64,000 bases of DNA from positions 1 through 64,000 of the forward strand of contig JAFRCV010000003.1 of the NCBI GenBank assembly GCA_017404205.1, read 5' to 3'. How positions within the stretch are numbered: the first letter of the stretch is position 1; each line of letters starts with the position of its first letter. Below the pieces are notes generated by a model. That model was not told where the DNA came from. It saw nothing but the letters and a program-made list of their open reading frames with translations, and searched no databases. The translations under genes and the position numbers were made by a program. This stretch comes from Erysipelotrichaceae bacterium. GTDB lineage: Bacteria; Bacillota_I; Bacilli_A; Erysipelotrichales; Erysipelotrichaceae. Of the stretch, positions 18,918-22,992 are shown in pieces.

Positions 18918-19481
18918 ATGAACATTGATGAACTAATCAATAGAGTTAAGACAAACGATGAGTGTGCTTGTAAAGAATTATTTGAGTATTATCGAAAGAT
19001 GATCTATTCAATCATTAATGAGTATGATTTAGATTTTGGTGATTATTCTGTTAACCAAGATGATTTATATCAAGAAGCTTTGATTGGAATCTACGATGCT
19101 TGTAAAGCATATAAATTTGACAAAAATGCTAAGTTTTCAACATTTGCTTATGTTGTAGTTAAAAGAAAAACAAACAAATTTTATTATGAGCAAATAAAAA
19201 GATATGCCAATGAAGCATATTCAATAGATAAAATAGAAAGTATTGATCATAAAGAAGCATTTAAATCAGTTTATGTAGAAGATAATCCAATCGCCTATTA
19301 TAAGAAAGAAGAATTTAAGAAATATATAGATACTTTTAATGAGTTAGATAGACAAATAATAAAACTTAGAATTGAAAATTATTCTTATGATCAGATAGCT
19401 CATATATTAAATATCAATAAAAAGAAAGTAGATAATCGTTTATATAAATTAAAAAAGAAATTTTTAGGAAAAACAAAATAG
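18918..19481 (+). CDS. Sigma-70 family RNA polymerase sigma factor (SigH-like)
   Basis: A 187-residue sigma factor with region 2 (DLYQEALIGIYDACKAY ... FSTFAYVVV, residues about 48-85) and region 4 (FNELDRQIIKLRIENYSYDQIAHILNI, about 140-180); region 3 is absent. Position after rlmB matches Firmicute sigH, though yacP is missing. Its target genes (competence, stress or stationary phase) cannot be read from here; comFA and comFC elsewhere in the window are candidates only by analogy. The ATG lacks an SD; TTTAATAAT lies 6-9 bases upstream, so it may be leaderless. Confidence 0.85.
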   Translation: MNIDELINRVKTNDECACKELFEYYRKMIYSIINEYDLDFGDYSVNQDDLYQEALIGIYDACKAYKFDKNAKFSTFAYVVVKRKTNKFYYEQIKRYANEAYSIDKIESIDHKEAFKSVYVEDNPIAYYKKEEFKKYIDTFNELDRQIIKLRIENYSYDQIAHILNINKKKVDNRLYKLKKKFLGKTK

Positions 19482-19524
19482 CTGTATATGAAAGATATGA
19501 CACATGTTTAATTGAGCTTATTGC

Positions 19525-19553
19525 TTGTAATAGATTAATAATAGGTTTATTAT
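19525..19553 (+). promoter_or_regulatory. Promoter of the FMN riboswitch operon
   Basis: TTGTAA (19525-19530), a 17-base spacer and TATTAT (19548-19553). The expected transcription start near 19560 is the first base of riboswitch helix P1. Confidence 0.65.
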
Positions 19554-19560
19554 AAAGGTG

Positions 19561-19659
19561 TTTTCAGGGCAGGGTTAGATTCCCGACCGGTGGTATACCC
19601 CACGAGTGAACAACGAACTTGTGAAATTCAAGTGGCGACAGTAAAGTCTGGATGGAAGG
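19561..19659 (+). promoter_or_regulatory. FMN riboswitch (RFN element) with SD inside helix P1
   Basis: All RFN core blocks are present: AGGGCAGGGT, GATTCCCGACCGGTGGTA, CCCACGAG, GTGAAATTC, CGACAGTAAAGTCTGGATG. Helix P1 can form between 19561-19565 and 19655-19659. The second strand is part of the ribU SD (AAGGA), so FMN binding would hide the SD. No terminator hairpin is seen, which suggests translational control. Confidence 0.95.
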
Positions 19660-19665
19660 AAATGT

Positions 19666-20262
19666 ATGAAAAAATCTAAAACTAATTTTATTGTATTTGT
19701 TGCGATACTAGGCGCCTTATCAGGAATATTGATGTTTATTAAATTTCCTATTCCAATAGCTCCTAGTTTTTATAAACTTGATTTTTCTGATGCAGCAAGT
19801 TTAATTGGTGGTTTTGCTTTTGGACCATTAGCTTCAATACTTATTAATTTAATTAAAAATATCATTAATCTATTAATTGAAGGGACGACAACGGCCTTTA
19901 TTGGTGAATTGTCAAATTTCATTATGTCTTGTGCACTTACTGTTCCAGCTGCAATCTATTATAAGAAGGAACATACTAAAATAGGTGCTCTAAAAGCTAT
20001 GCTTATAGGTATAGTTTCACTTGTTATTGTAGCTTCAGTGATTAATTATTATGTAGTTATACCTGCATATGTCAATTTGATGAATTTTCCATTAGAAGCA
20101 ATTATTGGAATGGGCAACAAAATATTCCCAGCAGTTAATTCGTTACTGACATTAATATTATTTTGTACAGCTCCATTTAATTTAATTAAAGGAATATTAG
20201 TTTGTTTTATAACTTTCATTTTATATAAAAGAGTTTCATCTCTAATTAATGGCAGTAAATGA
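19666..20262 (+). CDS. ribU: Riboflavin ECF transporter S component RibU
   Basis: A 198-residue membrane protein with six predicted helices. The N-terminal helix, the PSFYKLDFSDAASLIGGFAFGP segment and GELSNFIMS are RibU signatures. It binds riboflavin outside the cell and works with the shared EcfAA'T module, which is not in this window. The FMN riboswitch directly upstream confirms the substrate. Its TGA overlaps the next ATG (ATGA). Confidence 0.95.
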   Translation: MKKSKTNFIVFVAILGALSGILMFIKFPIPIAPSFYKLDFSDAASLIGGFAFGPLASILINLIKNIINLLIEGTTTAFIGELSNFIMSCALTVPAAIYYKKEHTKIGALKAMLIGIVSLVIVASVINYYVVIPAYVNLMNFPLEAIIGMGNKIFPAVNSLLTLILFCTAPFNLIKGILVCFITFILYKRVSSLINGSK

Positions 20263-21155
20263 TTGAAATTCAAGATAAATATATAGGTGAATTTAATAAA
20301 GATATTAAAGAAGTCGCTAGGTGTGAAGATGGTGATATTGTAAAGTTTTATACTAGAGATTGTTTTAATAATGCCATCAAGAATCATCAAGATCGTGGCA
20401 AAGAGAAAAATGAGATTGCCAATCCAGCAACAGGACCTTTATATATTAATGGCTTAAAAGAAAATGATGTTTTAGCTGTTGATATTATTGATATTGAAAT
20501 TGATTCAAAAGGTATATGTTGTACAATGGAAGATGTAGGCATCTTATGGGAAAACTGCGAACTAAGAACAAAAGAATTTGAAATAGAAAATGATTATATT
20601 AGATTCAATGATTTAAAGATTAAGATTAAGCCAATGATTGGTGTTATTGGTTTAGCCCCAAAAGATAAAATAATTTCTACAGAAGATTCCTTTTATTTAG
20701 GTGGTAACATGGACAATCCATTATTAAATAAAGGAACAACTATCTATTTGCCTTGTGAAGTTGATGGTGGTTTATTATCAATTGGTGATCTTCATGCCTT
20801 AATGGGAGATGGAGAAATAGCAGGAGCTGGTATTGAAATAAAAGGTGCAGTAACTGTTAGAGTTAGAATCATTAAAGACTTTAAATTAAACTGGCCGCTT
20901 CTAGAAACAAAAGATGCATATTATGTAAATGCTAATGGAATTGACAGCAACATGGCACTTACTAGAGCTTTTAAGGAGATGCAAAGACTTGTTTCTATAA
21001 CCAAGAATTGGGATTTAAGCGAAAGTGCAATCTATCTTTCTTTAAGGGCTATTGTTTCCAGCAATCAATCATGTATGTCAGTGAATATTGACCATGAAGA
21101 AAGTGGACCAAATTTTAGAGTTGGTGTTTATAAAGATGAAATAAAGATTATTTAA
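20259..21155 (+). CDS. Acetamidase/formamidase family protein
   Basis: A 298-residue member of the FmdA/AmdA family. NPATGPLYINGLKENDVL, GCxxxIP-like turns (IGVIGLAPKD), GGNMDNPLL and HALMGDGEIAGAGIE are family blocks. Members hydrolyse formamide or acetamide to ammonia and an acid. It is coupled to ribU by an ATGA overlap and shares the FMN riboswitch transcript with no terminator between. Why a flavin signal should control an amidase is not obvious. Confidence 0.88.
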   Translation: MIEIQDKYIGEFNKDIKEVARCEDGDIVKFYTRDCFNNAIKNHQDRGKEKNEIANPATGPLYINGLKENDVLAVDIIDIEIDSKGICCTMEDVGILWENCELRTKEFEIENDYIRFNDLKIKIKPMIGVIGLAPKDKIISTEDSFYLGGNMDNPLLNKGTTIYLPCEVDGGLLSIGDLHALMGDGEIAGAGIEIKGAVTVRVRIIKDFKLNWPLLETKDAYYVNANGIDSNMALTRAFKEMQRLVSITKNWDLSESAIYLSLRAIVSSNQSCMSVNIDHEESGPNFRVGVYKDEIKII

Positions 21156-21156
21156 T

Positions 21157-22233
21157 ATGAAAAGACAATGGACAAAAAAGGAAGCATGGGATTGGTATAA
21201 TTCTTTATCTTGGATAAGAGGCTTTAATGGTTATCCATCAAATTGTGTCAATCGTATTGCGATGTGGCAAAGCTATAATCATGAAGAAGTAGCTAAACAA
21301 ATTGAATATGAGTTTTCTTTAGCAGCCAATACGGGTTTTAATGCGGTGAGGGCAATCATCCAATTTGAATGCTGGTATTATGAGCACGATTCATTTATGA
21401 ATAATCTTGAAGAATATTTTTCTTTAGCTGATAAATACGGACTAAAGGTAATGCTTACAATAGGCAATGACTGTTCAGTGCCAAAGGAAGTATTTGAAAA
21501 AGTTAGCTTTGGACCACAAAAAGTTGATTGGGGACATCATGGAGGAAAAAAGATAAATCCTCACGAAGGAATATATGATGCTCCTGGCTATTATTTAATG
21601 GATGAAGAAGAATTTGAACCATATTATTATAAGATGGTTGATGAATTAGGAAGCAAATATGCTAAAGATCCTCGTTTACAAGTCTGGGATATTTTCAATG
21701 AACCTGGAAATGGCAGAAGAGGTAATTTAAGTTTAAAAGCAATGGAAAAGTTCTTTGAAATAATCAGATCACATGATCCGATTGCACCATTAACGGCTGA
21801 TGTATGGAGCTATGATAAAGATTTGTTGCCTAGACTTGAAATAGAAAAAAGAGCTTTAGAATTATCAGATATCATTACTTTCCATTATTATGGATCTTTT
21901 GAAAATATGAAAAAGATTGTCGATAACTTAAGAAAGATATATGATAGGCCATTAATTAATAATGAATGGTTAAATCGCTGTAGCCATAATAACGTTTTAG
22001 ATATTTTTCCTTATTTTTATGAAGAAAAGATTGGTTCATATCATTGGGGATTAATACAAGGGTATAGTCAAACATATGAACCATGGGGAAGATATTTCCA
22101 TCTAAAAGATAAATCTAATTTAGATTTAACCAAGTGGCAGCATGATCTGTATCGTTTTAATGGCTATCCATATGATGAAAAAGAAATAGAATGTATTAAA
22201 TACTATTGTTTAAAAGCTGACCAGGAAAAATAA
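21157..22233 (+). CDS. GH5-like (clan GH-A) glycoside hydrolase, cytosolic
   Basis: A 358-residue TIM-barrel glycosidase. The acid/base Glu lies in WDIFNEPGN (about residue 183) and the likely nucleophile in LINNEWL (about 270). There is no signal peptide, so it would act on an imported or intracellular glycoside. Related proteins are often labelled 1,4-beta-xylanase or cellulase-like, but the substrate is not shown. It begins 1 base after the amidase stop and has no SD, so it is translated from the ribU operon message. Confidence 0.85.
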   Translation: MKRQWTKKEAWDWYNSLSWIRGFNGYPSNCVNRIAMWQSYNHEEVAKQIEYEFSLAANTGFNAVRAIIQFECWYYEHDSFMNNLEEYFSLADKYGLKVMLTIGNDCSVPKEVFEKVSFGPQKVDWGHHGGKKINPHEGIYDAPGYYLMDEEEFEPYYYKMVDELGSKYAKDPRLQVWDIFNEPGNGRRGNLSLKAMEKFFEIIRSHDPIAPLTADVWSYDKDLLPRLEIEKRALELSDIITFHYYGSFENMKKIVDNLRKIYDRPLINNEWLNRCSHNNVLDIFPYFYEEKIGSYHWGLIQGYSQTYEPWGRYFHLKDKSNLDLTKWQHDLYRFNGYPYDEKEIECIKYYCLKADQEK

Positions 22234-22240
22234 AAAACTC

Positions 22241-22270
22241 TTGAAAATGACTTTCAGTTTATGCGATAAT
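22241..22270 (+). promoter_or_regulatory. Promoter of the rplJ-rplL-rpoBC operon
   Basis: TTGAAA (22241-22246), an 18-base spacer and GATAAT (22265-22270) preceded by TGC, an extended -10. It gives a leader of about 130 bases. Confidence 0.75.
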
Positions 22271-22277
22271 AAATAGG

Positions 22278-22380
22278 CATCAATATACCATAGACAGTAA
22301 CGGCATTAGCTTAAAAATGTTACCGAGGTGAATCGAAGATGATTTTTAACCTTTGTCTATGGGCAAAGGTTTTATTTATG
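22278..22380 (+). promoter_or_regulatory. Ribosomal protein L10 leader with competing terminator
   Basis: CATAGAC (22289-22295) pairs with GTCTATG (22355-22361) to close the leader. A terminator stem AACCTTTG/CAAAGGTT (22348-22355 with 22364-22371) ends in TTTATTT. The two overlap, so they exclude each other. This is the L10-leader arrangement, in which L10(L12)4 binding is expected to favour termination. Confidence 0.88.
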
Positions 22381-22407
22381 AGTATAGAGATGTTAGAAAG
22401 AGGGATT

Positions 22408-22992
22408 ATGAATCAAGCTGTATTGAGCGAGAAACAGAATACTGTAAATGAGATCGTTAGTAAGATCAAAGATTCACAGTCAACTGTAATCGTCGAGTAC
22501 CGTGGTCTTAGCGTTGCTGAAGTTACAGAACTTAGAAGAAATTTAAGAGCTGAAGATGTTGACTTCAAAGTTTATAAGAACACAATGGCTGAAAGAGCTG
22601 TAGATGAATGTGGTTTTGATGGCTTAAAAGAATATTTAAGTGGTCCTAATGCCTTAGCATTCTCAAAAGATGCTACAGCACCTGCTAGAATCTTATCTAA
22701 CTTCGCTAAGAAGCACAAAGCCCTAGTATTAAAGAGCGGTATCGTAGAAGGAAAGGAAGTTGGTCTTGAAACATTACAAGAATTAGCTAGCTTACCAAAC
22801 AGAGACGGTATGTTATCAATGTTACTAGGTTGTTTACAATCACCAGTTAGATCATTTGCTTGCATCGTTAAAGCTGTTGCTGATGCTAAAGAATCTGGTG
22901 AATTCAAGGTTGTTGATGCACCTGTTGAAGCATCAAATGAAGCTCCAGTAGAGAGCGAACCTGCTAAAGAAGCAGAGAAAGAAGGAGAATAA
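22408..22992 (+). CDS. rplJ: 50S ribosomal protein L10
   Basis: A 194-residue L10, the base of the ribosomal stalk that carries L7/L12 dimers. The start MNQAVLSEKQ was chosen because a GAGGG SD precedes it; longer frames run into the leader. The N-terminal globular domain (VIVEYRGLSVAEVTELR, FKVYKNTMAERA) is typical. The C-terminus has a Glu/Ala-rich tail (about 160-194) beyond the L12-binding helix, a lineage extension. It is autoregulated by the L10 leader. Confidence 0.96.
   Translation: MNQAVLSEKQNTVNEIVSKIKDSQSTVIVEYRGLSVAEVTELRRNLRAEDVDFKVYKNTMAERAVDECGFDGLKEYLSGPNALAFSKDATAPARILSNFAKKHKALVLKSGIVEGKEVGLETLQELASLPNRDGMLSMLLGCLQSPVRSFACIVKAVADAKESGEFKVVDAPVEASNEAPVESEPAKEAEKEGE

Follow-up and report, generated by a model that had tools for sequence, protein, structure and literature searches.

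Genes under the control of a vitamin riboswitch are often ascribed to the metabolism of that vitamin. In the genome of an Erysipelotrichaceae bacterium (GCA_017404205.1, contig JAFRCV010000003.1), an FMN riboswitch precedes the riboflavin transporter gene ribU together with an amidase gene and a glycosidase gene packed behind it, and the question arises why FMN should govern these two enzymes. We analyzed the first 64,000 nucleotides of this contig, hereafter the window (genome G000). A sequence-only reading of the window had stated that such control has no known reason in flavin metabolism, a view that our results share, and had proposed that the enzymes degrade a flavin glycoside or a flavin breakdown amide, giving free riboflavin. 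The results described below suggest a different answer, namely that the organism, a likely riboflavin auxotroph, probably has an ordinary FMN-repressed ribU that took up general metabolic cargo on its 3' side.

Organization of the ribU locus

The locus comprises the following features.

19556..19667, + strand: FMN riboswitch aptamer (RFN element; RF00050, 95.1 bits, full model 1-138)
19654..19661, + strand: ribU Shine-Dalgarno (SD) region, GGAAGGAA (structure line of the cmscan alignment; SD scan)
19666..20262, + strand: ribU, substrate-binding (S) component of a riboflavin ECF transporter (PF12822; 3p5n, 5kbw, 5kc0)
20259..21155, + strand: acetamidase/formamidase-family gene, here the amidase (PF03069; 3tkk, 2ii1; family motif columns; SD scan)
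21157..22233, + strand: GH5-like clan-A glycosidase with candidate catalytic residues E182 and E270 (relatives, alignment, profile against PDB)
20185..22226, + strand: tract 99.3% identical to the congener G001 (15 mismatches in 2042 nucleotides)
22270..22385, + strand: ribosomal protein L10 leader (RF00557, 66.1 bits), which opens the next transcription unit and is outside the system

The RFN leader had been described as shared by ribU, the amidase and the glycosidase, with tight gene spacing and no terminator, and each of these points was borne out. The aptamer lies directly 5' of the tightly packed genes, ribU and the amidase gene overlap at ATGA, a single base separates the amidase gene from the glycosidase gene, and a pattern scan of the + strand from 19482 to 22233 detected no terminator-like site. 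Downstream of the unit, the mechanical open reading frame for L10 (rplJ, 22339-22992) starts within the L10 leader, and position 22408 is more likely to be the true rplJ start than 22339. Upstream, between rlmB and the FMN leader, a small sigma-70-like gene (18918-19481) shares 52% identity with its counterpart in G001, compared with 74-84% for its neighbors, and is a fast-evolving gene.

The FMN switch and its probable control of ribU

The aptamer scored 95.1 bits over the full length of the RF00050 model, against a gathering score of 66.2 bits, placing it in this family, and it runs through the second base of the ribU start codon, sharing two bases with it. The covariance-model alignment places the P1 3' strand at 19658-19665 and the ribU start codon next, at 19666, so that the ribU SD region falls within the joining strand and P1, with GGAAGGAA (19654-19661) spanning the joining strand before P1 and the P1 3' strand itself. 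No space is left for a terminator between the aptamer and ribU. Plain minimum-energy folding of 19545-19690 missed the aptamer, and the stability of this segment was not above that of shuffled sequences (z +0.70); the aptamer call therefore rests on the covariance model. A candidate ribU start was found at most 15 nucleotides from the aptamer end in 27 of the 29 genus loci measured (the thirtieth aptamer locus, L020, runs off its contig and was left out), and a distance of at most 15 nucleotides is the criterion for classing riboswitches as direct translation control in the relevant passages of PMC2258182. Because the ribU ribosome-binding site sits inside the aptamer, a direct block of ribU translation is the most likely action of this FMN switch.

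The ribU product matched PF12822 (E 9e-30), with the riboflavin uptake protein 3p5n as its best solved relative (E 1e-25), and its similarity to RibU extended to 5kbw and 5kc0 (E about 1e-10 to 7e-10). From this similarity and the presence of an FMN switch, we infer that it transports riboflavin. Lumazine synthase (PF00885), a marker of riboflavin synthesis, was absent from all eight genus genomes searched while being present in 14 of 14 controls. With this one marker enzyme absent from its genome, the bacterium probably relies on taking up riboflavin and is likely to be a riboflavin auxotroph.

Probable extension of FMN control to the enzyme genes

An SD scan found no match beyond two bases upstream of the amidase start, and a weak three-base match for the glycosidase, whose start lies one base past the amidase stop. 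With an amidase start that has no SD, a weak glycosidase SD, the ATGA overlap and the one-base gap, FMN control probably extends to both enzymes via translational coupling. Termination followed by restart is the likely route, since the + strand of 19482-22233 also has no terminator-like site and ribU no promoter-like site. When FMN is scarce, the aptamer would be free and the ribosome-binding site in the P1 side open, allowing ribU to be translated; ribosomes finishing ribU at the overlapping ATGA would restart on the amidase, and, past the single base behind the amidase stop, once more on the glycosidase. With ample FMN, expression of all three genes would be expected to drop together.

Alternatively, an unseen promoter in ribU or in the amidase gene could drive the enzymes, leaving FMN with little effect. 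In favor of such decoupled expression, our promoter scan was limited to a sigma-70-type consensus, and it returned + strand matches within the amidase gene (20500 and 20578). However, the same scan showed the + strand of ribU to be free of promoter-like sites, the 27 promoter-like sites found overall are not commoner than in shuffles (mean 23.7, sd 5.9), and the amidase start, overlapping the ribU stop, is the very one for which no SD was detected. We regard decoupled expression as quite improbable, and translational coupling is retained as the preferred model.

Properties of the two enzymes

The amidase scored 99.7 bits against PF03069 (gathering score 27; E 2e-28), showed whole-length similarity to 3tkk and 2ii1 (E about 5e-49) and retains the acetamidase/formamidase motif columns, indicating membership of this family. 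By contrast, it reached 59.9 bits against the curated formamidase FmdA model NF045496, for which the cut-off is 500. A search for literature on the amidase active site found none. Judging by family membership, a small-amide hydrolase would be the safest guess for its function.

The glycosidase fell below every Pfam cut-off, its best match being PF02449 with 17.8 bits against 21. However it can be placed by its relatives: those found on plasmids carry the labels 'cellulase family glycosylhydrolase' or GH5, and seven glycosidase sequences, combined into a profile and run against the PDB, retrieved GH5 endoglucanases and other clan-A enzymes, with 6uje as the best match (E 2.8e-6). On these two grounds, the label 'GH5-like, clan A' given to it by the sequence-only reading is a fair one. 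N181, E182 and E270 are invariant in all seven aligned sequences, providing both an NE(P) acid/base motif and a second glutamate, and E182 and E270 are presumably the catalytic glutamate pair of clan A. A single-sequence structure model had a mean pLDDT of 44.5, too poor for reading the fold.

The glycosidase has no apparent signal peptide, and its relatives have as neighbors a LacI regulator with an MFS transporter on an E. coli plasmid, genes for ABC sugar transport and for galactonate or xylose oxidation in Natronorubrum, LacI and sugar ABC genes in Octadecabacter, LacI, GH43 and MFS genes in Hymenobacter, and GH2 and GH43 genes in G396. A cytosolic oligosaccharide glycosidase is thus its likely identity from sequence and context. 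Apart from the glycosidases of G000 and G001, 392 genomes of the phylum yielded one full-length relative, at 50% identity, in G396. Further weak partial matches were obtained in G002, G239 and G248 and, by a profile search of 395 class genomes, in twelve more genomes, none of which were counted as members; the relative in G605 (L130), one of these twelve, is a broken fragment with stop codons.

Distribution of the arrangement

The FMN aptamer was present in 33 of 36 genus genomes, and ribU stood next to it in all 31 loci examined (leaving out G023 and also G021, whose locus is truncated where the contig stops). The amidase and the glycosidase follow ribU in two of these 31 loci, those of G000 and G001. 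In G007, a PF00300 gene overlaps the ribU end by one base; in G014, rpiB lies 55 nucleotides past ribU; and in G016, a 318-amino-acid frame adjoins ribU. The remaining 26 loci have an unrelated gene with a common N-terminal motif 34-119 nucleotides downstream, as judged visually on the first 60 residues. The whole ribU-rplJ interval of G014 (L074:3440-6587) holds rpiB, zinc and iron alcohol dehydrogenases and a cupin gene, with no amidase or glycosidase.

Similar results were obtained starting from the enzymes. Among 195 family genomes, 40 have the amidase family and two (G000 and G001) the full-length glycosidase, while ribU or the glycosidase lay within 1.5 kb of the amidase at two of the 30 family loci examined, again those of G000 and G001. 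None of 14 amidase loci from other species, viewed with wider flanks, has ribU or the glycosidase, and among eight amidase loci taken from genome contigs these neighbors occurred only at L001, on the G001 contig. No Rfam riboswitch scored above threshold at the other 28 family amidase loci, nor at L002-L008. Conservation of the operon, on which the proposed flavin role had been made to depend, is therefore confined to two of 31 ribU loci and two of 30 amidase loci. Relatives carrying ribU alone, the outcome held to speak against that role, are largely what the genus contains, with 29 of the 31 ribU loci lacking the two enzymes and the two holder species as the exception.

These distributions bear on a possible salvage of flavin conjugates, in which RibU would import a flavin glycoside or a damaged flavin, the glycosidase would remove the sugar, and the amidase would open or trim the amide to yield riboflavin. 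That the enzymes share an FMN-repressed unit with the riboflavin transporter of a likely auxotroph, that the glycosidase is without an apparent signal peptide and that the arrangement is intact in two species would all fit such a pathway. However, 2/31 is a very sparse occurrence among genus ribU loci, and both enzyme families are found elsewhere without ribU or an FMN switch, the amidase in other members of the family without ribU, the glycosidase or a riboswitch, and the glycosidase relatives among sugar transporters and other glycosidases. In addition, carriage of a glycoside by RibU is an assumption, and the riboflavin-degradation neighborhood presented in the main text of PMC12934955 contains neither an amidase nor a glycosidase. 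Combined with the recent exchange of the two genes described below, these observations leave the proposed action on flavin glycosides or breakdown amides unsupported, and we consider it very unlikely.

A second possibility is that low FMN serves as a sign of a poor environment, raising the scavenging of amides (for ammonia) and oligosaccharides along with vitamin uptake, so that the co-regulation would be adaptive with non-flavin substrates. The tight coupling and the intact frames in both species would agree with this, as would the overlap of an enzyme gene with the ribU end in G007 and the proximity of rpiB in G014. The cargo is not conserved, however, and in 26 of the 31 loci its place is taken by the unrelated downstream gene recognized by eye. 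We judge an adaptive use of this kind to be unlikely, and acquired cargo with incidental co-regulation is preferred as the explanation.

Recent exchange of the enzyme genes

The tract shared with G001 (20185-22226) is 99.3% identical, compared with 74.9% for the upstream segment 14120-19456. It begins in ribU, 78 nucleotides before the gene end, and extends to where the glycosidase gene finishes. Consistently, a comparison of the window with G001 gave a dS of 0.011 in the amidase and of 0.73 in ribU, 1.14 in rlmB and 1.00 in cysS. The sharp difference in identity between the tract and its upstream DNA indicates, as read from the two genomes, that a recent homologous exchange between species brought the tract to at least one of G000 and G001. 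Past the tract the two genomes part, the window continuing into the L10 leader and G001 into different DNA. The G001 contig (L072) stops 177 bases beyond the tract, and these last bases contain the start of a gene similar to a DUF6088 gene that in G013 is next to AbiEii, of a type IV toxin-antitoxin family. G001 was assembled from a metagenome, its contig stops this soon after the tract and rplJ was not found in the assembly, which leaves a small chance that the tract in G001 is a mis-assembly artefact. The breaks in identity at both sides of the tract, however, argue against a simple mis-assembly. Scans confirmed no relative of the amidase or of the glycosidase in viral contigs, and plasmid records held only distant relatives, all below 60% identity; no carriage of the tract by phage or plasmid was seen.

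The differences within the tract amount to nine replacement and six silent codons, corresponding to an omega of about 0.35 to 0.49 depending on the assumed transition bias (P 0.05 to 0.14 against neutrality), which leans to purifying selection on the exchanged tract without proving it. Because the open frames, the coupled start and stop codons and the catalytic motifs are all kept, selection may favor the arrangement. The GC content of the amidase gene fits the AT-rich window (31% GC), whereas the copy found elsewhere in the G014 genome has 50% GC. Since the divergence of the amidase from the G014 copy (73.5% identity) resembles that of ribU, rlmB and cysS (67.7-83.8%), the amidase may be a long-standing member of the genus gene pool, later relocated behind ribU, and not a newcomer.

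With only two related species found to hold the arrangement, and through a recent exchange, the enzymes are better explained as acquired cargo than as parts of a conserved vitamin B2 pathway. In this scheme, which we regard as the probable one, a small-amide hydrolase and a cytosolic oligosaccharide glycosidase would serve general metabolism, and would have reached at least one of the two holder species by homologous exchange of the tract that starts 78 nucleotides short of the ribU end and reaches to the glycosidase end. A wider version, possible but doubtful, is that the 3' side of ribU forms an exchange slot in the genus, with vitamin status controlling whatever cargo plugs in. Because incoming tracts would recombine within the ribU end, cargo would arrive translation-coupled under the FMN switch of the recipient, and candidates for it would be the amidase and glycosidase in two species, the PF00300 gene in G007, and rpiB with a dehydrogenase in G014. 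If this were true, it would be a simple way for riboswitch regulons to gain members. The present case illustrates how riboswitch-based assignment of function can fail, in that recent exchange can put unrelated enzymes under an FMN switch via an overlap with ribU.

Comparison with known systems

As in other RF00050-ribU units of Bacillota, the aptamer is directly followed by a RibU-family S component; the difference is that ribU is here apparently coupled to two enzyme genes, which are missing in 29 of 31 genus loci. According to the sections of PMC4418817 on this subject, earlier studies found FMN switches at genes for riboflavin synthesis or transport and nowhere else, and its Table 1 gives few exceptions, yaaD and the carbohydrate kinase CLJU_c14910; likewise, FMN-controlled genes are sorted into synthesis and transport in the corresponding part of PMC3766115. 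The yaaD and CLJU_c14910 units, as tabulated in PMC4418817, resemble the present one in having an FMN switch before genes without an evident flavin role, but the genes are others, and here the enzymes come after ribU and not in its place.

The amidase shares whole-length similarity and family motifs with the PF03069 family (3tkk, 2ii1), whereas it differs from the formamidases of NF045496 in scoring far under their cut-off. The glycosidase has 28-50% identity over its length to the clan GH-A 'cellulase family glycosylhydrolase' group (e.g. WP_032248209 from an E. coli plasmid) and has both candidate catalytic glutamates in common with it; by contrast, the other members examined are located in sugar-utilization loci, and this one behind ribU and an amidase gene. 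A preprint on C. scindens (PMC12934955) describes riboflavin degradation with an aldolase, oxidoreductases and a flavokinase/adenylyltransferase. It was considered as a parallel and rejected, the string 'amid' being absent from its main text and 'glycosid' appearing once, in the reference list. A literature search on FMN switches before amidases or glycosidases and on flavin glucosides brought up no paper that we recognized as describing this arrangement. Taken together, an FMN-switch unit with an amidase and a glycosidase is unusual among these systems, and the evidence points to acquired cargo over a new flavin pathway.
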